Under the pieces are notes generated by a model. It did no database searches. It was not told the DNA's origin and worked only from the letters and a program-made list of their open reading frames with translations. From Bifidobacterium breve (lineage in GTDB: Bacteria; Actinomycetota; Acidimicrobiia; Acidimicrobiales; Ilumatobacteraceae): a stretch of DNA of 44,368 bases. Shown in pieces: positions 9,325 to 25,314 of this stretch. The first letter of the stretch is position 1. Each line of letters starts with the position of its first letter. Location: assembly GCA_945889715.1 (NCBI GenBank), contig CAMDCI010000003.1, forward strand, positions 1 to 44,368. Direction: 5' to 3'. The position numbers were made by a program, and so were the translations under genes.

Positions 9325-10218
9325 TTAGTCGCCGAGAACGGTCTGCAATGCAGACGGAATATCGCTTGGTCCGTCAATACAGGCAATGCGTGCACCGACT
9401 TGCGACGCCAACACGCGGGCTTCGGCGTCATCGCCTAACGGCGCCAAAATAACGACTTCATCAAGAGCCCTCGCTGCAGCCTGCACATCACCCTCAACGG
9501 TGGCACGGCAATCACTCAAGATGACGGTGATTCGCCGACCAGCACGGGTGCGCGACAACTGATCACCAGCAGCAAGTAATGCTCCAGCTAAATCGGTCGT
9601 ACCAAAACCACGCAATGCCAGCACATCATTCACAACTTGTTCGCCAGACTTCGTTGACGTTTGACCTTTTGCGACAACAACATCTTTTCCAAAGGCAATC
9701 ACGCTGTAATCCTCGGGACTTCGCCAGGCGACGGCTGCCGCAGCCATCGCAGAAGTTGCAAGTGGCTTGCCACCCATTGATCCGCTGCGATCAACTAAAA
9801 GTGCAATCGCGGTTCCGGGCTTGACCCAACTGCGAACTTTCAAACCTTCTGGATCAATTGCTTGTCGCGAAGCACGAGCGTCAAGAATTGCGTCCATTGA
9901 CGCATCGAGATCAATATCGCCAGCATCGGGTCGATACGGACGCGTCGCCATCTTGCCGATTCCACGTGGTGACACTGGGCCACGTTTCGAAACATCCAAA
10001 AACAAACGGCCGGCCAAACGCTTGGCGAGATCACGTAATTTCTGGTCGGTTGCGCCCGTCAGGTCGGCGAGCAACGCCAACATCGCATCAGGATCTTCTT
10101 CAAGACCTTCTTCAACTGCGGTCTCATCAAGTTCACCAACTTCAGGTGACACTTGTTCAAATTGCGGATTACGTGACAACTCACGTCGCGACAAAGTTTT
10201 CTTTGATGCTTCATTCAC
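9325..10218 (-). CDS. VWA domain protein (MoxR partner / CoxE-BchD-like)
   Basis: AIALLVDRSGSMGGKPL (MIDAS DxSxS), GFGTTDLAGALLAAGDQLSR, ITVILSDCRA. Confidence 0.85.
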   Translation of the reverse strand: MNEASKKTLSRRELSRNPQFEQVSPEVGELDETAVEEGLEEDPDAMLALLADLTGATDQKLRDLAKRLAGRLFLDVSKRGPVSPRGIGKMATRPYRPDAGDIDLDASMDAILDARASRQAIDPEGLKVRSWVKPGTAIALLVDRSGSMGGKPLATSAMAAAAVAWRSPEDYSVIAFGKDVVVAKGQTSTKSGEQVVNDVLALRGFGTTDLAGALLAAGDQLSRTRAGRRITVILSDCRATVEGDVQAAARALDEVVILAPLGDDAEARVLASQVGARIACIDGPSDIPSALQTVLGD

Positions 10219-10247: not shown

Positions 10248-11165
10248 CTAGTGGGTCGCCCCCGCCGGGGCGTTCGCTTTTCCCGATTCACCTTGCGGAG
10301 CTGGGGCAAACACCTCATTCCACAATTCGGTGATGATGTCTTCGGCAGTTCGCACACTTCCTTCACGAACACGCACGCGCCCCGACAACGCAACAAGTGC
10401 CGCATCAAGCCCGACACCCGCATCAAGAACCGTCAGTGAACGAACGCTTGCGAGCGACACAGTCACTGCAGCCATGTCAATTGCTCCACGTACTGAAGAG
10501 CCAACACGTAGATCGCTGTGAGTACGTGTACGACGAACGAGTTCAACAACTTTGTCGAGCCAACCATCGGGAAGGTTCTTCGTGTCCCGTCCTGCAATGC
10601 GCTGTTCGACTTCGGCATTTTGATAGCCGACCGATACACGGCACACGCGATCGTAAATTGCCCCAGAAATACGCGCAGTTCCAACGGCATCAAATGGATT
10701 CATCGCTGCCACCAAACGGAAACCCGATGCTGCGGCAACGCGTCCGTATCGCGGAACGTTCAGTTCACCTTCGCTCATAACTGTGATTAAAACATTCAAT
10801 GTTTCTTCGGGAATGCGATTGATTTCTTCAACGTACAACAACGAACCATCACGCATCGCTATCGCCAACGGCCCATCAACAAACACATCGGGTTCATAAC
10901 CATCAGTCAGTACTCGTGCTGGATCAAAGTGGCCGACAAGTCGTGCTGGAGTCAGTTCGGCATTGCCTTCTACGAAAACGAAACCGATGCCCAGTCCTTC
11001 GGCCACTGCACGCAACAGCGTGCTCTTGCCAGTTCCCGGAGGTCCTTCAAGCAAGACATGCCGATCAGCATCAAGTGCTGCGACTACTAGTTCAACTTCA
11101 CGTCGTCGCCCGATGACGGTGTCATCGAGCGACGCGATCAGATCACGACGAGAAGATTGAGTCAT
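10248..11165 (-). CDS. MoxR family AAA+ ATPase
   Basis: LLEGPPGTGKSTLLRAVAEGLG (Walker A), SLLYVEEINRIPEETLNVLITVMSEGELNVPRYG (Walker B), VAAMNPFDAVGTARIS. Confidence 0.92.
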   Translation of the reverse strand: MTQSSRRDLIASLDDTVIGRRREVELVVAALDADRHVLLEGPPGTGKSTLLRAVAEGLGIGFVFVEGNAELTPARLVGHFDPARVLTDGYEPDVFVDGPLAIAMRDGSLLYVEEINRIPEETLNVLITVMSEGELNVPRYGRVAAASGFRLVAAMNPFDAVGTARISGAIYDRVCRVSVGYQNAEVEQRIAGRDTKNLPDGWLDKVVELVRRTRTHSDLRVGSSVRGAIDMAAVTVSLASVRSLTVLDAGVGLDAALVALSGRVRVREGSVRTAEDIITELWNEVFAPAPQGESGKANAPAGATH

Positions 11166-11178
11166 TGATTAATGACAA

Positions 11179-12339
11179 TCAGGCGTTGACAATGACGCCA
11201 CGAAGGTTCGTGCCGTCACGCATAGCTTCGTAACCCTCGTTGATATCTTCAAGCTTGTAGGTCTTAGTGATGAGTTCATCAAGCATCAGTTGACCAGCAC
11301 GGTACATATCGAGTAGCGCTGGGATATCAGCACGTGGGTTCAACGAACCAAAGATGGTTCCCTTGATTTCTTTGTTCCACATAGCCAAGTTGAACAAGTT
11401 GATGTTGGCGGTTTCGCTTGTCATCGGTGAAATTGCGGTCACAACAACCGTGCTTCCCTTGCCAGCCAAGTTCATTGCCTCGCCCATCATTTCGCCGTGC
11501 AACACGCCAGGGGTCATGATGACACGGTCGGCCATTTGGCCGTACGTCATTTCCATGACCGACATCATCGCGTCAGCCATCGATGGGAATGTGTGCGTCG
11601 CACCGAATTCCATGGCCTTTTCACGCTTGAACTCAACTGGATCAATGGCGATGATGCGCTTCGCACCAGCCATACGAGCACCTTGTACTGCATTCATACC
11701 AATGCCACCGATTCCGACGACAACAACGGTGTCACCAGGCTGCGTACCAGCGCGATTTGCTGCTGATCCCCAACCGGTTGCCACACCACACGACACGAGT
11801 GCGACACACTCAAGCGGGATGTCCTTTTCAACCTTGATGATCGACTGCTCGCTCACACATGCGAACTCAGAGAATGTTCCAACCTTGGCCATCAACGTGA
11901 TGGGCTGACCATTAACGAAGTGACGATGAGTGTCATCAGTGATCATGCCACCAACAAATGTCTTGGCTCCGTTGTCACACAAGTTCTGACGACCCGTGCT
12001 GCAGTAACGACAACGTCCACACGACGGAACGAACGAAGCCGATACGTGATCGCCAACTTCAACGCTCGTGACACCAGGACCGACTTCAACAACAACGCCA
12101 GCACCTTCGTGACCACCAATGATGGGGAAGAAACTTTCGATGCCCATGAGTGGCCAGAACTCTTCGGGCGGAACCATGTCGCCAGTGACCAAGTGTTCGT
12201 CGCTGTGGCACAAACCTGCAGCGCGCCAGTGGACAATCACTTCACCGGTCTTGGGTGGGTGGATTTCGATTTCCTCGATCTTCCACTGCTGATTCAAGCC
12301 CCACAATACGGCGGCCTTTGACTTACGGATTCCAGACAT
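11179..12339 (-). CDS. NDMA-dependent (mycofactocin-type) Zn alcohol dehydrogenase
   Basis: GLCHSDEHLVTGDM, IIGGHEGAGVV, CGRCRYCSTGRQNLCDNGA, GIGGIGMNAVQGARMAGAKRIIAIDPVEFKREKA. Confidence 0.9.
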   Translation of the reverse strand: MSGIRKSKAAVLWGLNQQWKIEEIEIHPPKTGEVIVHWRAAGLCHSDEHLVTGDMVPPEEFWPLMGIESFFPIIGGHEGAGVVVEVGPGVTSVEVGDHVSASFVPSCGRCRYCSTGRQNLCDNGAKTFVGGMITDDTHRHFVNGQPITLMAKVGTFSEFACVSEQSIIKVEKDIPLECVALVSCGVATGWGSAANRAGTQPGDTVVVVGIGGIGMNAVQGARMAGAKRIIAIDPVEFKREKAMEFGATHTFPSMADAMMSVMEMTYGQMADRVIMTPGVLHGEMMGEAMNLAGKGSTVVVTAISPMTSETANINLFNLAMWNKEIKGTIFGSLNPRADIPALLDMYRAGQLMLDELITKTYKLEDINEGYEAMRDGTNLRGVIVNA

Positions 12340-12388
12340 GGCGGTCTCCCCTTCGTGGCACGACCTTCGCGCCTATCAAGGGAACGCT

Positions 12389-12420
12389 ACTCGCCGAGAA
12401 CCTCAGGGCTCTAGGCGAGT
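12389..12420 (-). terminator. Hairpin between the two ADH genes
   Basis: ACTCGCC...GGCGAGT arms with inner GAG/CTC, immediately downstream of the 12432 gene end. Confidence 0.55.
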
Positions 12421-12431
12421 CACGCCAGATT

Positions 12432-13544
12432 TCATTCGTATACGAGAACTCCACGAATGTTTTCGCCAGCCCGCATGGCTGCGTAACCATCGTTGACACC
12501 GTCCAGCGAATACGTGCGGGTGACCAGACCATCGAGGTCAAGTTGACCCTCGCGATACAGACCAGCCAACTTCGGGATGTCGGCACGGGGATTACCCGAA
12601 CCAAACAACGAGCCAACAACTTGCTTTTCCATCAAAGTGACATCAAGCAGGTTCATGGTGACGCCCATTTCCATTGCTGGGTGAATGTTCGTGACGACCA
12701 CGCGACCGCGCTTTGATGCCAAGGCCATGGCTTCAGCCATCAGGGCTCCGGATCCGACGCCCATGGTCAAAATGACCTTATTGGCCATCGTTCCCCAGGT
12801 GACTTCTTGGAGCAGTGCGACCGCATCAGTCATTGAGGCAGCAGTGTGTGTGGCGCCAAATTCCATGGCCTTTTCGCGCTTGAACTCAACCGGGTCAATG
12901 GCGATGATGCGCTTGGCGCCAGCCAAACGAGCACCCTGAATGGCGTTGGCACCGATTCCGCCAACACCCACAACGGCGACTGTGTCACCAGGCTTCACTT
13001 CGGCCGCGTACACCGCCGAACCCCAGCCAGTCACAACGCCACAGCCCAAGAGGCAGACCTTGTCAAATGGCAGATCGTCGTCAACCTTGATGCAACTGGC
13101 TTCGTTCACCACGGTGTGATGAGCGAAGGTTCCGAGCAAGCACATCAGGCCCAGTTCTTGACCACGAGCGTGGTGACGTGAACCGCCATCAGTGATCTGG
13201 CGTCCGCCACCCATCAGTGCACCGAGGTCGCACAGGTTCTGGTGGCCAGTTGAACAGCTCGGGCAACGACCACATGACGGGATGAAGCCAAAAACCACAT
13301 GGTCGCCAGGGGCCAGCCAACTGACTCCTTCGCCAACTTTGCGGACGATTCCGGCACCCTCGTGACCGCCGATAATCGGCAGTGCAAAAGGCAGGTCACC
13401 GGTCATGAGGTGCTCGTCGCTGTGGCACATTCCTGATGCCTTCATTTCGACGAGTACTTCGCCAGCTTTGGGATCGTCGAGTTCGATCTCTTCGACGCTC
13501 CATGGCGTGTTGGTTTCCCACAAAATTGCGGCCTTCGACTTCAT
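12432..13544 (-). CDS. NDMA-dependent (mycofactocin-type) Zn alcohol dehydrogenase, second paralog; start taken at MKSKAAILW
   Basis: GMCHSDEHLMTGDLPFALPIIGGHEGAGIV, CGRCPSCSTGHQNLCDLGALMGGG, GVGGIGANAIQGARLAGAKRIIAIDPVEFKREKAMEFGATHT. Confidence 0.92.
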   Translation of the reverse strand: MKSKAAILWETNTPWSVEEIELDDPKAGEVLVEMKASGMCHSDEHLMTGDLPFALPIIGGHEGAGIVRKVGEGVSWLAPGDHVVFGFIPSCGRCPSCSTGHQNLCDLGALMGGGRQITDGGSRHHARGQELGLMCLLGTFAHHTVVNEASCIKVDDDLPFDKVCLLGCGVVTGWGSAVYAAEVKPGDTVAVVGVGGIGANAIQGARLAGAKRIIAIDPVEFKREKAMEFGATHTAASMTDAVALLQEVTWGTMANKVILTMGVGSGALMAEAMALASKRGRVVVTNIHPAMEMGVTMNLLDVTLMEKQVVGSLFGSGNPRADIPKLAGLYREGQLDLDGLVTRTYSLDGVNDGYAAMRAGENIRGVLVYE

Positions 13545-13564
13545 GTGCACCCCCGGGATTAGGT

Positions 13565-13583
13565 GGTCATCAGTTTGATGACC
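13565..13583. promoter_or_regulatory. Palindromic operator-like site between ADH and mftA
   Basis: GGTCATCA-GTT-TGATGACC, perfect 8-bp arms, in the divergent promoter region. Confidence 0.65.
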
Positions 13584-13654
13584 TGAATAGATATCCATAG
13601 TAGATCAAGCGAACGGTAGTCGCTCCCAAGCCAGAGCGTTGTACGCTTCTAGGC

Positions 13655-13819
13655 ATGGAAAGCCCGATTGCCACCGCAGATACTTCTGTCGTTGAAGAGT
13701 CCCCCGTCGCCCAGGTCGTTGGTGACATGGTTGCCGACATGGTTGCCGACGTTCCTGCCATTGAAGCCGAACTGCTCATCGAGGAAATTTCCATCGATGG
13801 CATGTGCGGCGTTTACTGA
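13655..13819 (+). CDS. mftA: Mycofactocin precursor peptide (54 aa, not in supplied ORF track)
   Basis: MESPIATADTSVVEESPVAQVVGDMVADMVADVPAIEAELLIEEISIDGMCGVY*; the IDGMCGVY C-terminus is the MftA hallmark and mftB/mftC follow. Confidence 0.97.
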   Translation: MESPIATADTSVVEESPVAQVVGDMVADMVADVPAIEAELLIEEISIDGMCGVY

Positions 13820-13848
13820 GCCTCGCTTTTACGGCAACCGAGACCGTC

Positions 13849-14127
13849 ATGACTGTCGCTCTCGAGTCAGTTCTCGAAATTCATCCACAGGTCGCAGTGC
13901 GTCCAGAAACTTTTGGAGCTCTTGCGTACCACTACGGCAATCGCCGATTGATTTTCTTGAAGCACCCAGACGTTGTCACGGTCGTTCAGGCCTTGAATGA
14001 TCACCCCGATGTGCAATCCACTTTGAGTGCCTGTGGGGTTACTCAAGATCGTTGGCCGTCTTTTGTTGCAGCATTGTCATCGCTCGAAACTTCGGAGGTT
14101 GTGCGTGAGCGCCAAATCGCTAGTTGA
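13849..14127 (+). CDS. mftB: Mycofactocin precursor-binding chaperone MftB (RiPP recognition element)
   Basis: Between mftA and mftC; MTVALESVLEIHPQVAVRPETFGALAYHYGNRRLIFLKHPDVVTVVQAL. Confidence 0.92.
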   Translation: MTVALESVLEIHPQVAVRPETFGALAYHYGNRRLIFLKHPDVVTVVQALNDHPDVQSTLSACGVTQDRWPSFVAALSSLETSEVVRERQIAS

Positions 14128-15241
14128 AGAAATGAAGCGCGGTCTTGACGCGCCAATTTGTCTGACATGGGAACTTACGTATGCCTGCAACTTGCAGTGC
14201 GTGCACTGTTTATCATCAAGTGGTCAGCGTGATGAGCGCGAACTTTCAACCGCAGAAGCAAAGAAGATTCTTGACGATCTGCGCGATTTGCAAGTGTTCT
14301 ATATCAATATCGGTGGCGGCGAACCAATGGTGCGCCGTGATTTCTTTGAACTGCTCGAGTACTCAGTTGCTAACGGCATCGGCGTGAAGTTCAGTACCAA
14401 CGGCGCATTCATTGATTCAGAAAAAGCACAGCGCTTGGCAGCAATGGATTACCTCGATATCCAGATCAGCCTCGATGGTATTGATGCAGCAACGAATGAT
14501 GCCGTGCGCGGTGAAGGTTCATACGACATGGCCATTCGTGCCATGGAAAATCTGAAGGCTGCCAACTTTGGTCAATTCAAAATCTCGGTCGTGGTGACCC
14601 GCCATAACGTTTCACAACTCGATCAATTCAAAGCACTCGCCGATCACTACGGTGCACAGTTGCGCATTACGCGTTTGCGCCCCGCGGGTCGTGGTGCCGA
14701 TACCTGGCACGAACTACACCCGACCAATGCACAGCAGCGCGAAATCTATAACTGGTTGTTGAAGCACGGAGAAAATGTCTTAACTGGCGATTCATTTTTC
14801 CACCTCAATGCACTTGGTGAATCACTGCCTGGTCTCAATATGTGTGGAGCCGGCCGCGTCGTGTGTCTCATCGACCCCATCGGCGATGTGTACGCCTGCC
14901 CATTCGTGATTCATGACGAATTCAAAGCTGGAAATGTGCGCGACGAGGGCGGCTTTGGCAAAGTCTGGAAAGAAAGCGATTTGTTCCTGTCGTTGCGTGA
15001 GCCACAATCGGCTGGCGCCTGTGCTTCGTGTGGTGCATTTGATGCTTGCCAAGGTGGATGCATGGCTGCCAAGTTCTTTACCGGACTTCCGCTTGACGGA
15101 CCCGACCCCGAATGTGTGGGTGGCGATGCCGATGAAGCGCTGGCGATTATTTCGCGCGGTTCAGAACCAAAACCAAGCATGGATCATTCAAAGCCCATCA
15201 CTCTGACGCGCAAAAAGCTTTCGGTTTCAGCCGCTAACTAA
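14105..15241 (+). CDS. mftC: Mycofactocin radical SAM maturase MftC; GTG start at 14105 overlapping mftB
   Basis: LTYACNLQCVHCLSSSG (CX3CX2C), NIGGGEPMVRRDFFELLEY, C-terminal SPASM Cys cluster CGAFDACQGGCMAAKFFTGLPLDGPDPEC. Confidence 0.96.
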   Translation: MSAKSLVEEMKRGLDAPICLTWELTYACNLQCVHCLSSSGQRDERELSTAEAKKILDDLRDLQVFYINIGGGEPMVRRDFFELLEYSVANGIGVKFSTNGAFIDSEKAQRLAAMDYLDIQISLDGIDAATNDAVRGEGSYDMAIRAMENLKAANFGQFKISVVVTRHNVSQLDQFKALADHYGAQLRITRLRPAGRGADTWHELHPTNAQQREIYNWLLKHGENVLTGDSFFHLNALGESLPGLNMCGAGRVVCLIDPIGDVYACPFVIHDEFKAGNVRDEGGFGKVWKESDLFLSLREPQSAGACASCGAFDACQGGCMAAKFFTGLPLDGPDPECVGGDADEALAIISRGSEPKPSMDHSKPITLTRKKLSVSAAN

Positions 15242-15306
15242 ATCCCGCTGAAAATTACTCAACTAAGAGTTTCCGATTTCATCCAAAATCGGCGAGACTG
15301 TAAGCG

Positions 15307-17202
15307 ATGTCCTTAGTTCAGCCGCTGTCGCTCGGTTCTCGAACCGCACCCAATCGGGTGATGTTCGGTCCTCATGTCACGAACTTAGGGAATGACGAAC
15401 GTTCATTCTCGGCTGATCATGTCGCGTATTACGAACGTCGCGCCATTGCTGGTTGCGGAGTCATTGTTGTCGAAGGAGCAAGCGTTCACGAGAGTGACTG
15501 GCCATATGAACGTGCTCCTCTCGCAAGTCGTTGTGCTGATGGGTGGGCCAATATTGCCGAGGCCTGTCATCGCCATGGTGCGCTCGTCATTGCATCACTC
15601 GATCACGCCGGAGGACAAGGCTCATCGGCGTATTCGCAACAACCGCTGTGGGCACCGTCACGTGTTCCCGAGGTGAACTCACGTGAAGTGCCAAAATGGA
15701 TGGAACACGAAGACATTGTTGCGGTGATCGAGGGTTTTGGTGTAGCCACTCGCCTCGCTCTGAGCGCTGGTTGCGATGGCGTCGAAATCAATGCGGGTCA
15801 ACATAGTTTGGTCCGCCAATTTTTATCAGGCCTCACTAATCAACGTGGCGACGAATACGCCGATCGTTTGTTGTTTGCCCGCCAAGTTATTCAGGCAATT
15901 AAGAGCGCAGCGCTTGCTGTGCGTGCTGATGCACTTGTTGGCCTGCGCTTGTCATGCGATGAACTAGCGCCATGGGCTGGCATCACTCCCGAAATGGCAC
16001 CCGATATTGCTCGCGAATTATGCGAAATCGGGATTGATTATGTCGTCGTGGTCCGTGGGTCAATTTTCTCCATAGAAAAGACTCGCCCCGACTTCCATGA
16101 ACCAACTGGTTTCAATATTGATGTCTGTCGTTCTATTCGCTCTGTACTACCTGCGCATGTCGCGGTTTTCTTGCAAGGATCAATCGTTGATGTTGGTCAA
16201 GCCGAATGGGCAATCGGCGATGGCGTGTGCGATGCAGTCGAGATGACTCGAGCACAAATTGCCGATCCCGATCTGGTGCAGAAAATCAGCAAAGATCAAC
16301 ACTCACAAATTCGTCCATGCATTCGTTGTAATCAAACTTGCCAAGTACGTGATGCCCGAAACCCCATTGTGACTTGTGTGGGTGAACCAACATCAGGCCA
16401 CGAAATGCAAGATCCCGATTGGTACGTGTCTTCGATGTCGCCACAAACAGTCACGGTCGTCGGTGCAGGCGTCGCCGGGCTTGAAACTGCGCGCGTTGCT
16501 GCGTTGCGTGGTCACGCGGTCACCATCGTTGAAAAGTTGTCGAGCATTGGTGGCGTCGCTGCCGTTGCTGGGCCGGGCCAACCGTTGGTTGCTTGGCTGA
16601 AATCAGAAGTTGAACGGCTCGGTGTGAAAGTTGAACTCAGTAGCGAATGTAAAAATACATCTACCATTCAGTCGCAAGTTGTCGTTCAAGCCACTGGAGC
16701 CCAACGTGGAGTCGCCGAATACGAAGTTGGCGTTGGTGCTGAAGTACTTGAAATCGCCGATGTTCGTTGTGGGAAATCGATACTCCCCGAAACTGGACTC
16801 GTCACTATTCTTGATCCAATCGGTGGACCCATCGGCGTGTCGCTCGCCGAAGAACTCGGCGAGCGAGCAATCTTGGTGACCCAAGACAATATTGCCGGAA
16901 ACGAATTGTCACGTACGGGCGATCTTGCCCCCGCAAATGTTCGACTTGCTCAACGTGGCGTTCACATTCAACGCCGAAGTGTGGTTCGTGCGGTTGAACA
17001 ACGCGGAACAGACTTTGTCGTGCGCGTACAAGATCGCTTTTCGGGCAAAATGACCGAACTTGAATGTGCTGCTGTTGTTGATGCTGGTTTCAGATTGCCG
17101 ACTGCGCCAATTGAAGGGACCATTCAAGTTGGCGACTGTGTTGCACCGCGAACAATCCTTGAAGCAATTCTTGAAGCCCGTCGCGCTGCCCTCACTATTT
17201 AA
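15307..17202 (+). CDS. Mycofactocin-associated FadH/OYE (2,4-dienoyl-CoA reductase-like) family oxidoreductase
   Basis: LGSRTAPNRVMFGPH, CDGVEINAGQHSLVRQFLS, CIRCNQTCQVRDARNPIVTC Fe-S cluster, VTVVGAGVAGLETARVAALRGHAVTIVEK Rossmann fold; follows mftC on same strand. Confidence 0.9.
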   Translation: MSLVQPLSLGSRTAPNRVMFGPHVTNLGNDERSFSADHVAYYERRAIAGCGVIVVEGASVHESDWPYERAPLASRCADGWANIAEACHRHGALVIASLDHAGGQGSSAYSQQPLWAPSRVPEVNSREVPKWMEHEDIVAVIEGFGVATRLALSAGCDGVEINAGQHSLVRQFLSGLTNQRGDEYADRLLFARQVIQAIKSAALAVRADALVGLRLSCDELAPWAGITPEMAPDIARELCEIGIDYVVVVRGSIFSIEKTRPDFHEPTGFNIDVCRSIRSVLPAHVAVFLQGSIVDVGQAEWAIGDGVCDAVEMTRAQIADPDLVQKISKDQHSQIRPCIRCNQTCQVRDARNPIVTCVGEPTSGHEMQDPDWYVSSMSPQTVTVVGAGVAGLETARVAALRGHAVTIVEKLSSIGGVAAVAGPGQPLVAWLKSEVERLGVKVELSSECKNTSTIQSQVVVQATGAQRGVAEYEVGVGAEVLEIADVRCGKSILPETGLVTILDPIGGPIGVSLAEELGERAILVTQDNIAGNELSRTGDLAPANVRLAQRGVHIQRRSVVRAVEQRGTDFVVRVQDRFSGKMTELECAAVVDAGFRLPTAPIEGTIQVGDCVAPRTILEAILEARRAALTI

Positions 17203-17276: not shown

Positions 17277-18644
17277 CTAATCGCCCAACACTGGGTGATG
17301 CCGTGCCGATTCAAAATCGCTGATATCAATCACTGCTGTAATCGGCATTCCAGGTCCAACTACTGCCGACAGAGCATTTCCACCACTCAATTTTTCGGGG
17401 AGTCCAGAAGTAAAGACCACCAATCTTTCCCCTGGAAAAACTTCAGTCACAACTGCGGCCCGCCCGATAGCACGCCACAATAAATCGCCACGCGATAAAC
17501 CCGGTCTGACATTCGTCAGACCACCAGCAATGTCAAACAATATTGATCGGCCATCGGGGCGAATCGCTTTTCCAGCAATTTCAAATCCAGTCAGAACTTT
17601 TTGACCCCACACGATCTTGTGAAAATGATTGAGCGTCAAAATTTCTTCAACGACATCACGAATTGAACGTGTCTCAACATTGGTGCGAGGTTCACCGTCT
17701 TTCGCAACACGTTGCAAGGCGCGATCAACATAATTCTCATCAGTATCAAACCCGACAAATGATCGCGACAGACGTGAAGCAGCAAGGGCGGTTGAACCAG
17801 ATCCCATAAACGGGTCAAGAACGAGGTCACCTTTGAACGAGTATAATTCGATACAACGCTCAGCAAGAGTGACCGGGAACGGTGCGGGATGATTAACACG
17901 CGTCGCGCTTTCGGGTTGAATCTCCCATACATCGATCGTGGCCTCAATGAACTCATCTGACGTTGACGTTGAAACTGATGGCAGTCCGCGTTTGGCACGT
18001 TTGGCTGGCACGATCGCTCGATCGAAACGACCCTTGCTCGCCATAATCAACCGTTCAGTCGTGTCGCGCAGGACCGGATTCGTCGGCGACCTAAACGAAC
18101 CCCATGCACAACTGCCTGATGAGCCTCGTTGTTTCAGCCACACCACTTCCCCGCGCAATAAGTACCCAAGTTCGTCTTGCAAAATCGAGGTGATGTCAGA
18201 CGCCAAAGAACGGAATGGCCGGCGGCCTAAATTGGCTACATTGACGACGATTCGCCCGCCGGGTTCGAGCACCCGCTTACATTCAGCGAATACTTCCGTG
18301 AGCATTTCCAAATATTCGACATAGTCAGCCGGGATATGCCCTTGGCCCAAGGCCTCTTCATAGGCCTTCCCTGCGAAATAGGGCGGTGACGTGACGACAA
18401 GACCGACTGAATTATCCGGGATTCGCGACATATCTCGCGAATCGCCGACAAAGATCTGATTTCGAACAGGGTCGACCGTGAGCGGATCGGCCAATGTCTC
18501 GTCTGCCGATATATCTGGTGTCCGAAAGCGTGCATAAAAGGCCGTCGCATCGTGACCTTCGCGTTTCGATGCACCAAAGGCTGATGTTGCGGTGCTGCGT
18601 CGAACTCGAGGCGCGCTTTCACCGAAACTTGACACGTCAGCCAT
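17277..18644 (-). CDS. Site-specific DNA methyltransferase (SPPY type, N4-cytosine or N6-adenine) with C-terminal extension
   Basis: LVVTSPPYFAGKAY (motif IV), LVLDPFMGSGSTALAASRLSRSFVGFDTDENYV (motif I), LEPGGRIVVNVANLG. Confidence 0.88.
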   Translation of the reverse strand: MADVSSFGESAPRVRRSTATSAFGASKREGHDATAFYARFRTPDISADETLADPLTVDPVRNQIFVGDSRDMSRIPDNSVGLVVTSPPYFAGKAYEEALGQGHIPADYVEYLEMLTEVFAECKRVLEPGGRIVVNVANLGRRPFRSLASDITSILQDELGYLLRGEVVWLKQRGSSGSCAWGSFRSPTNPVLRDTTERLIMASKGRFDRAIVPAKRAKRGLPSVSTSTSDEFIEATIDVWEIQPESATRVNHPAPFPVTLAERCIELYSFKGDLVLDPFMGSGSTALAASRLSRSFVGFDTDENYVDRALQRVAKDGEPRTNVETRSIRDVVEEILTLNHFHKIVWGQKVLTGFEIAGKAIRPDGRSILFDIAGGLTNVRPGLSRGDLLWRAIGRAAVVTEVFPGERLVVFTSGLPEKLSGGNALSAVVGPGMPITAVIDISDFESARHHPVLGD

Positions 18645-23373: not shown

Positions 23374-24336
23374 TCAGAGGGACTGGAGGGCTTCGATGAG
23401 CTTGGGCAGAACCTTGTGCACATCGCCAACAATTCCGAGGTCAGCAATTCCGAAGATCGGTGCTTCCTTGTCCTTGTTAATAGCGATGATGTTCTTCGAA
23501 CCCTTCATACCCACCATGTGCTGAGTCGCTCCCGAGATACCACAAGCGATGTACACGCTCGGCTTCACAACCTTGCCGGTCTGACCGACTTGGTAGCTGT
23601 ACGGAACCCAGCCAGCGTCGACGATGGCGCGTGATGCACCAGGCGCACCCTTGAGCAACTTGGCCAACGTTTCGATCATTGCGTAGTTGGCACTCTCGCC
23701 AAGTCCACGTCCACCCGACACAACAACATTGGCTTCGTCGAGCTTGGGACCAGTTGTCTCTTCAACATGCACTGCAGTGATCTTTGCGGTTCCGGTTGCA
23801 CCGAGGTCGGGAACACTGACCGCCTGCACTGCAGCTGCTGATCCACCTGAAGCCTCGGGGTTGAATGACTTCGGGCGGAAGGCTGCCAAATACGGAGCAC
23901 CTCCGGTGAAGGTTGTCGTGACCAAAGTGTTGCCACCAAAGATTGGCGTGGTAGCCGCAACTGAATCACCAACTGCTTCAATATCAACACTGTTGGTGAG
24001 CACAGTACGACCGAGCTTGACTGACAAGCGAGCCATGACGTCACGGCCTTCGTATGACTGCGGGAACATGATGAGGTCGGGCGATTCGCCGCCGTCAATT
24101 GTTGCTTTCATTGCCGATGCAACTGAAACTCCTGCCAAGTTCTGGCCGTAGTCAACTGCGAACACTTTGCTGGCGCCGTATTCACCAAGTGCACCAGCAA
24201 CCGCAGCGCCGTCACCAGCAACCCACACGCTGACTGATCCACCAAAAGTGCGGGCCTTGGTCACCAATTCGAGTGAACCCGATGTTGGTGCGCCATTGGC
24301 GACTTGAGCGAATACCCAAATGTTGCTAATTCCCAT
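23374..24336 (-). CDS. etfA: Electron transfer flavoprotein alpha subunit
   Basis: VVSGGRGLGESANY, PYSYQVGQTGKVVKPSVYIACGISGATQHMVGMKGSKNIIAINKDKEAPIFGIADLGIVGD. Confidence 0.96.
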   Translation of the reverse strand: MGISNIWVFAQVANGAPTSGSLELVTKARTFGGSVSVWVAGDGAAVAGALGEYGASKVFAVDYGQNLAGVSVASAMKATIDGGESPDLIMFPQSYEGRDVMARLSVKLGRTVLTNSVDIEAVGDSVAATTPIFGGNTLVTTTFTGGAPYLAAFRPKSFNPEASGGSAAAVQAVSVPDLGATGTAKITAVHVEETTGPKLDEANVVVSGGRGLGESANYAMIETLAKLLKGAPGASRAIVDAGWVPYSYQVGQTGKVVKPSVYIACGISGATQHMVGMKGSKNIIAINKDKEAPIFGIADLGIVGDVHKVLPKLIEALQSL

Positions 24337-24392
24337 TGTTCTGTCCGTTCTCGTTCTTTTTGGTCGTTAAGTAGTTGTAGTTGTTGATCATC

Positions 24393-24408
24393 AAACCGCA
24401 AGCGGTTT
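24393..24408 (-). terminator. Small hairpin immediately after etfB stop
   Basis: AAACCGC-AA-GCGGTTT between etfB and etfA. Confidence 0.45.
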
Positions 24409-25185
24409 TCAGATGACCTTCAAACCTTCGAGGAAGGTCACGATCTTGCCAAATGTTTCGCCATCATCTTCGATGACTTCGCCAGCAGCACGAGCTTCAG
24501 CCTGCGCAATATTGCTGATCTGCTGACCGGCACCAGCCCAGCCAACTGGAGTCACACCAAGATCGGCGGCAGTGACTTCATCAACTGGCTTTGACTTTGC
24601 AGCCATGATGCCTTTGAAGCTTGGGTAACGCGGCTCAACAACACCAGCAGTCACCGAGATGAGTGCGGGCAGCGGACAGGTCACTTCGTCATAACCTTCT
24701 TCGGTCTGACGATTGGCCTTCAGAACTCCGCCTTCAATCGAAACTTTCTTTGCAAAAGTCACCGATGGCAATCCGAGAACTTCGGCAATCTGCTCGGGAA
24801 CAGTTCCGGTGTAACCATCGCTCGATTCGGTTGCCGCGATAATCAAATCGGCGCCACCCAAACGCTGAATCGCTGCAGCCAAAATCTTGGCCGTCGTGAG
24901 TGCGTCTGAACCCTGCAATGCCGGATCGGATACGAGCACTGCTTTGGCAGCACCCATCGCAAGCGCTGTGCGCAGACCAGCGGTCTCGCTATTTGGCGCC
25001 ATCGACACCAAGCTGACTTCACCGCCACCTGCTGCGTCAACCAACTGCAAGGCCATTTCAACGCCGTAACTGTCGGACTCGTCAAGGATCAATTTGCCTT
25101 CGCGCTTGAGCGTGTTTGACGAGGCGTCAAGGGCTCCGGGGTTGGCGGGGTCGGGGATCTGCTTCACACAGACGATTACGTTCAT
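24409..25185 (-). CDS. etfB: Electron transfer flavoprotein beta subunit; start at MNVIVCVKQ
   Basis: MNVIVCVKQIPDP, DESDSYGVEMALQLVD, ATESSDGYTGTVPEQIAEVLGLPSVTFAKKV. Confidence 0.95.
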   Translation of the reverse strand: MNVIVCVKQIPDPANPGALDASSNTLKREGKLILDESDSYGVEMALQLVDAAGGGEVSLVSMAPNSETAGLRTALAMGAAKAVLVSDPALQGSDALTTAKILAAAIQRLGGADLIIAATESSDGYTGTVPEQIAEVLGLPSVTFAKKVSIEGGVLKANRQTEEGYDEVTCPLPALISVTAGVVEPRYPSFKGIMAAKSKPVDEVTAADLGVTPVGWAGAGQQISNIAQAEARAAGEVIEDDGETFGKIVTFLEGLKVI

Positions 25186-25314
25186 AGTTCGCCATTCTTG
25201 CGGCTTATGCGCCGTTTCACACAACCGATCGGATATCTAAATAAGTGACTCCCGACCTACTCGACGGGGCGTCGGCTCAACTCCCTCCCAAATGGGCTGG
25301 TACCGTCTCAGGCG

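Follow-up and report, generated by a model that had tools for sequence, protein, structure and literature searches.

The locus described here raises the question of how the redox cofactor mycofactocin can be completed in an organism whose mycofactocin genes do not include mftD. The stretch of DNA that we analysed (the window) is the whole of contig C3, 44,368 bases, of a 2.08-Mb draft genome (G000) that is 81% complete in 227 contigs. It carries the genes for the precursor peptide MftA, the chaperone MftB, the radical SAM maturase MftC and a FadH/OYE (old yellow enzyme) oxidoreductase, OYE1, with two alcohol dehydrogenase (ADH) genes of the N,N-dimethyl-4-nitrosoaniline (NDMA)-dependent type to their left. 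In the described pathway, MftC cyclises the Val-Tyr core of the precursor, MftE releases 3-amino-5-(4-hydroxybenzyl)-4,4-dimethyl-2-pyrrolidinone (AHDP), and MftD deaminates AHDP to premycofactocin (PMC7491314). Removal of mftD from Mycobacterium smegmatis abolishes premycofactocin and mycofactocin, and AHDP-glycosides accumulate (PMC7491314). A genome that lacks MftD and retains MftA to MftC, MftE, MftF and NDMA-type ADHs therefore needs either another route of AHDP deamination or another product. We suggest from comparison of the genes that this system probably does make mycofactocin without MftD, which would be replaced by a cassette of OYE2 (a second FadH/OYE oxidoreductase), an electron transfer flavoprotein (ETF) and the FixC/FixX pair, and that the window holds one half of a complete system.

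Neither the window gene list nor whole-genome family searches placed mftD, mftE, mftF or mftG in the window, as a preliminary description of this DNA had noted, and no mftR was seen in the gene list or around mftEF, although no genome-wide MftR search was made. The same description held that the missing genes must be unlinked, and a search of the genome bore this out for MftE and MftF, which lie together on another contig (C7), and not for MftD and MftG, which were not found. No match to the MftD model (cut-off 470.85 bits) exceeded approximately 32 bits in the 13 genomes of the genus that were searched, several of them 90–97% complete, which also rules out an MftD-family paralogue standing in within the genus. 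MftD was likewise not found in a genome of a related family (G016) that has MftC, MftE and MftF; matches of 200–310 bits to the MftD model in other genomes come from different proteins of the alpha-hydroxyacid oxidase family. For MftG, seven genomes of the genus gave no TIGR03970 match at an E value of 1e-80.

The second locus, on contig C7 (stretch L121), is a one-strand operon with the order OYE2-DedA-mft_EtfA-FixC-FixX-mft_EtfB-MftE-MftF. A gene just before it encodes an FrhB-like protein, a relative of the F420 hydrogenase beta subunit (L121, 4883-6121, plus strand). The genome thus carries one mycofactocin system in two pieces. In G250, a genome of the same genus that is 97% complete in seven contigs, both halves stand in a single cluster of approximately 16 kb (L171, L046) with the order ADH-ADH-MftA-MftC-OYE1-OYE2-DedA-EtfA-FixC-FixX-EtfB-MftE-MftF; MftB was not among the matches in this cluster. 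The two pieces lie approximately 35 kb apart on a single contig in G003, and on different long contigs in G004 and G008. Because the halves are joined in G250 and separated in these three genomes, we regard the split as a secondary break within the genus. The locus in the window, which had been called abbreviated, is instead half of a cluster that a sister genome retains intact.

Comparison across the actinobacteria showed that the cassette and MftD alternate almost exclusively. We searched 398 genomes of the Actinomycetota for MftC and found it in 74, to which six relatives were added, and the resulting 80 genomes were searched with the same models. MftD exceeded its cut-off in 58 of them and OYE2 was present in the remaining 22 (19 over the cut-off, two truncated at contig ends, G398 and G012, and one slightly under at 764 versus 793 bits, G347); no genome had both and none had neither. 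The ETF alpha model mft_etfA was over its cut-off in 18 of the 22 OYE2 genomes and in 0 of the 58 MftD genomes. In the other four (G197, G330, G346 and G347) an ETF alpha match lies 3–5 kb from MftC in the order MftC-OYE2-EtfA-FixC-FixX; in G347 alone an OYE1 match separates MftC from OYE2. Three of these (G197, G330 and G346; L173, L174 and L175) have a divergent locus with an MftA-like peptide ending LAVDGICGVY and an MftC of 325–340 bits, followed by OYE2-EtfA-FixC-FixX and MftF; the queries used detected no MftE or MftB there. In a second set of 50 genomes, three of which look identical to genomes of the first set by coordinates, MftD alone was present in 27 (in one of them as two contig halves) and OYE2 alone in 19; one genome had both and three had neither. 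The last three are drafts: L109 has ETF and FixC beside MftC, L056 has OYE1 beside MftC, and L055 resembles MftD-type neighbours. Since the occurrence of the cassette almost exactly complements that of MftD, the cassette is the best candidate for the missing step.

The two states have switched repeatedly. A careful MftC tree with 72 rows implies nine changes of state (eight to nine in bootstraps, against a mean of 20.9 after shuffling), and at least five changes are forced by well-supported branches; a quick tree of 83 rows gave 12 changes. The clearest switch, fully supported in the quick tree, places the cassette genome G269 as sister to the MftD genomes G358 and G120. The family to which the window belongs is itself divided, with genera g1, g12, g17 and g18 of the cassette type and g10, g11 and g13–g16 of the MftD type.

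Plasmids of Streptomyces give the same picture at the level of the operon. The annotated cluster of Streptomyces sp. NBC_00564 reads mftR-A-B-C-OYE1-OYE2-etfA-FixC-FixX-etfB-mftE, and that of Streptomyces sp. NBC_00080 reads mftR-mftG-A-B-C-D-E-F, so that the cassette occupies the slot of MftD between mftC and mftE. OYE2 was present in six of seven Streptomyces plasmid clusters, and the cassette-type clusters on the plasmids of SAT1 and NBC_00557 (L254, L255) lie close to type I polyketide synthase genes. Thermomicrobium and Tsukamurella plasmids have mftD and, in the stretch read, no cassette. Beyond the bacteria, plasmids of Haloterrigena turkmenica and Halolamina carry mftA, B2, C and mftE/mftF-type genes together with ETF, ferredoxin, FixC-like and OYE2-like genes; no mftD was seen in the stretch read, and the chromosomes of all these plasmid hosts were not searched for it.

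The active site of OYE2 was compared with those of characterised relatives in 27 sequences, with positions read off HMMER alignments. Tyr166 and His252, the catalytic residues of FadH, are replaced in all 27 by Ser and by Ala or Phe, respectively. In trimethylamine dehydrogenase (TMADH) the residues compared are the catalytic His172, Cys30 as the flavin link (6-S-cysteinyl flavin mononucleotide, FMN) and an aromatic bowl that includes W264 and W355; the His172 position is His in every OYE2 (His169). The four [4Fe-4S] cysteines are kept bar one residue in one sequence, as is the GxGxxG motif for flavin adenine dinucleotide (FAD), and the haloarchaeal OYE2 also retains His169, the four cysteines and the FAD motif. 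The second Rossmann domain has Asp-x-x-Gly-x-His and lacks GxGxxG in all 27, an absence shared with TMADH and histamine dehydrogenase. A predicted structure (pLDDT 79, from 23 sequences, with poor loops) aligned over its full length with naphthoyl-CoA reductase, FadH, histamine dehydrogenase, TMADH and the HisD amine oxidase, at query-normalised TM scores of approximately 0.76–0.82. OYE2 thus belongs to this fold group, with an active site like that of none of these enzymes. That it is an ordinary 2,4-dienoyl-CoA reductase is disfavoured by the loss of both FadH catalytic residues, and that it is a true TMADH or histamine dehydrogenase is rejected, as it has neither Cys30 nor the aromatic bowl.

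The partner proteins suggest a route for electrons. Among solved chains, mft_EtfB is most similar to the ETF beta subunit in the TMADH:ETF complex (1o94), and its similarity to the Thermotoga maritima beta subunit 7koe_A is weak (30 bits). FixC and FixX find their best matches in the Protein Data Bank (PDB) in EtfC (7koe_C, 3.5e-79) and EtfX (7koe_D, 4.5e-15) of T. maritima. In the TMADH:ETF complex the [4Fe-4S] centre hands electrons to ETF (PMC8097209), and EtfC and EtfX of T. maritima carry electrons to menaquinone (PMC10734219). We liken the proposed role of OYE2 to that of TMADH, which draws electrons from an amine and delivers them to ETF; FixCX would give the exit to quinone.

The mechanism that we propose begins as in mycobacteria: MftA, MftB and MftC would give the cyclised Val-Tyr core, MftE would release AHDP and MftF would glycosylate it, the genes being identified here and the reactions taken from the literature. 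OYE2, as an FMN/[4Fe-4S] flavoenzyme of the FadH/TMADH fold, would then oxidatively deaminate the AHDP amine to the redox-active keto-amide, perhaps assisted by OYE1. Electrons would pass from the iron-sulfur cluster of OYE2 to its dedicated flavoprotein mft_EtfAB, on to FixC/FixX and into the quinone pool. The reduced cofactor may be re-oxidised along this chain as well, and that would account for the lack of MftG matches in the cassette-type genomes searched.

Several observations weigh against this proposal. OYE2 has Leu27 and Glu59 in all 27 sequences and no aromatic residue at the positions of TMADH W264 and W355, so that both Cys30 and the bowl are missing, and over its whole sequence it resembles naphthoyl-CoA reductase and FadH more than the amine dehydrogenases. 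The closest relative of mft_EtfA is not the partner ETF of TMADH. The haloarchaeal OYE2 falls well under the cut-off (615 bits) and differs in its pocket. In Frankia gtarii (G450:C200, L245) MftD and OYE1/OYE2 occur together, and no ETF gene was detected on the contig of the OYE pair. The Fisher P value of 4e-20 for the 80 genomes ignores relatedness, and the phyletic alternation could also come from the cassette replacing some other function of MftD.

Could the cassette instead be an electron outlet, re-oxidising reduced mycofactocin to the respiratory chain in place of MftG, with AHDP deaminated by an unlinked and unrecognised enzyme? The gene set does resemble a chain of dehydrogenase, ETF and quinone oxidoreductase, no cassette-type genome searched yielded MftG, and the MftG study leaves open whether other enzymes complement MftG (PMC11778925). 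However, approximately 40 of the 58 MftD-positive genomes have neither MftG nor a cassette, whereas every MftD-negative genome among the 80 has one; the cassette therefore follows the loss of MftD and not that of MftG. Simple replacement of MftG is disfavoured on this ground, and the outlet as a whole seems to us unlikely, although an outlet is fully compatible with a cassette that may do the work of both MftD and MftG. The preliminary description had raised another possibility, that the cofactor ends as a different product; here the pathway would stop at glycosylated AHDP or another derivative, which OYE1, OYE2 and ETF would use or modify. Such glycosides are what M. smegmatis accumulates without mftD, with no mycofactocin (PMC7491314), and in the PDB alignments the OYE2 active site matches no characterised enzyme. 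Against this, MftE and MftF are kept, NDMA-type nicotinoprotein ADHs adjoin mftA in G000, and the way in which the cassette alternates with MftD points to an equivalent step. We retain a different product as a rival that is distinctly unlikely; replacement of MftD explains the data better, given that the cassette occurs almost exactly where MftD is missing. A variant to which we give slightly less credence still is that the cofactor derives from mycofactocin but escapes deamination wholly or in part, with OYE2/ETF/FixCX as the matching dehydrogenase cycling it directly with the quinone pool; it would then be a chemically distinct redox cofactor shared by Actinobacteria and Haloarchaea.

The most prosaic explanation, that the locus is ordinary and MftD is missing only because metagenome-assembled genomes are incomplete, is the least credible. 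G000 is indeed an incomplete draft, and three genomes of the second set lacked both MftD and OYE2, yet the absence of MftD holds for 13 of 13 genomes of the genus and for the nearly complete G250, on which grounds we reject incompleteness as the cause. MftD is also absent from drafts of cultured organisms, Saccharopolyspora and Prauserella among them.

The features of both loci are collected in Table 1. The core of the window proved to be as first described: MftA, MftB, MftC and the FadH/OYE enzyme, and the two ADHs on the opposite strand, all exceed curated NCBIfam cut-offs. The translation of MftA ends IDGMCGVY, that is, in CGVY with the core VY. The listed open reading frames (ORFs) of mftB and mftC begin within the preceding gene, and the TIGR03962 profile match begins at residue 33 of the MftC ORF; ATG starts at approximately 13849 and 14132 are likelier. 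Cysteine counts indicate that the [4Fe-4S] cysteines are retained in OYE1, which adjoins OYE2 in the joined clusters and is probably a partner of the OYE2/ETF cassette.

Table 1. Genes of the window and of the second mycofactocin locus, with model matches in bits
Feature	Location	Strand	Match or remark
CoxE-like VWA protein, partner of MoxR-like ATPase	window, 9325..10218	-	PF05762 VWA_CoxE, over cut-off
MoxR-like AAA ATPase	window, 10248..11165	-	PF07728, bpMoxR; directly downstream of ADHs
NDMA-dependent (mycofactocin-coupled) ADH 2	window, 11179..12339	-	TIGR03989, 548 (cut-off 440)
NDMA-dependent (mycofactocin-coupled) ADH 1	window, 12432..13598	-	TIGR03989, 554 (cut-off 440)
MftA precursor peptide, 54 amino acids	window, 13655..13819	+	TIGR03969, 49.8 (cut-off 25)
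MftB chaperone	window, 13849..14127 (ORF opens GTG 13804)	+	TIGR03967, 96.8 (cut-off 33)
MftC radical SAM maturase	window, 14132..15241 (ORF opens GTG 14027)	+	TIGR03962, 627 (cut-off 265)
OYE1, mycofactocin FadH/OYE oxidoreductase 1	window, 15307..17202	+	TIGR03996 (mycofact_OYE_1), 683 (cut-off 628)
N4/N6 DNA methylase	window, 17277-18644	-	opposite strand, after OYE1
OYE2	contig C7 operon		TIGR03997, 936
DedA protein	contig C7 operon		
mft_etfA	contig C7 operon		NF038209, 346
FixC-like flavoprotein	contig C7 operon		
FixX-like ferredoxin	contig C7 operon		
mft_etfB	contig C7 operon		TIGR04503, 228
MftE	contig C7, 25130-25771		255 (cut-off 172), whole-genome family search
MftF	contig C7, 25811-27127		367 (cut-off 280), whole-genome family search

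The order AAA-ADH(-ADH) recurs in dozens of relatives, and the MoxR-like ATPase and CoxE-like protein are possibly a helper pair for the NDMA-dependent ADHs. The DNA methyltransferase after OYE1 lies where the preliminary description had put it; it was there called unrelated, and its position beside mycofactocin genes is in fact conserved, as it adjoins them in several genomes of the genus and in family f11 (L169, 14589-15971, and L187, 11443-12333). The window also holds a general ETF alpha/beta pair (23374-25224, minus strand) that is distinct from the mycofactocin ETF, scoring approximately 150 bits to the mft_etfA model. Metagenome assemblies titled Bifidobacterium breve (L043, L117) carry mycofactocin loci of the Acidimicrobiia type, and their titles are apparently wrong.

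Parts of this picture have been in view for some time. Haft in 2011 recorded the MftD family in most, not all, species with mycofactocin (PMC3023750), and the MftG study found that approximately a quarter of genomes with MftC lack MftG and left the replacement open (PMC11778925). The open-licence literature gave us no paper that describes MftD alternating with an OYE/ETF/FixCX cassette, none linking mycofactocin with an electron transfer flavoprotein and, among the papers listed, none on FixABCX or OYE in this role. What is new here is the alternation; the mycofactocin names of the gene families were already known. MftD has been treated as a required step in mycobacteria, yet it is absent from 22 of the 80 actinobacterial genomes with MftC, and the cassette offers a named, testable candidate for the step that is missing. 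It also bears on the open question of how electrons flow from mycofactocin to respiration without MftG, as the cassette already resembles a route of this kind. If the proposal is right, the FadH/OYE family would include a new ETF-dependent amine dehydrogenase activity, and annotators could treat clusters without MftD as complete and not broken.

Set beside the mycobacterial mftRABCDEFG cluster, the present system is similar in its homologues of MftA, MftB, MftC, MftE and MftF, all over curated cut-offs, and in the NDMA-type ADHs beside mftA; it differs in having no MftD or MftG, in its six-gene OYE1-OYE2-EtfA-FixC-FixX-EtfB cassette and in being divided between two loci within the genus. The NCBIfam models OYE_1 and OYE_2 (TIGR03996, TIGR03997) and mft_etfA and mft_etfB (NF038209, TIGR04503), whose cut-offs are exceeded by OYE1 of the window and by OYE2, EtfA and EtfB of the second locus, were already named as mycofactocin-associated, and the descriptions shown for them assign no role. 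With TMADH and histamine dehydrogenase OYE2 shares the FadH/OYE fold, the [4Fe-4S] cysteines, the His172 position, the lack of the NAD(P)H GxGxxG motif and a dedicated ETF gene alongside, but it has neither the Cys30 flavin link nor the aromatic bowl and stands closer in sequence to FadH and naphthoyl-CoA reductase. The FixABCX/EtfABCX system of T. maritima (7koe) resembles the cassette in its FixC and FixX homologues, in an ETF pair within the same operon and in the expected reduction of quinone, although mft_EtfB is distant from its beta subunit and the chain is here coupled to OYE enzymes. Lastly, MftD, an FMN-dependent member of the alpha-hydroxyacid oxidase family, would share with the cassette the same proposed step, and in Streptomyces it shares the same slot between mftC and mftE, but it comes from an unrelated family and is a single gene where the cassette has six.

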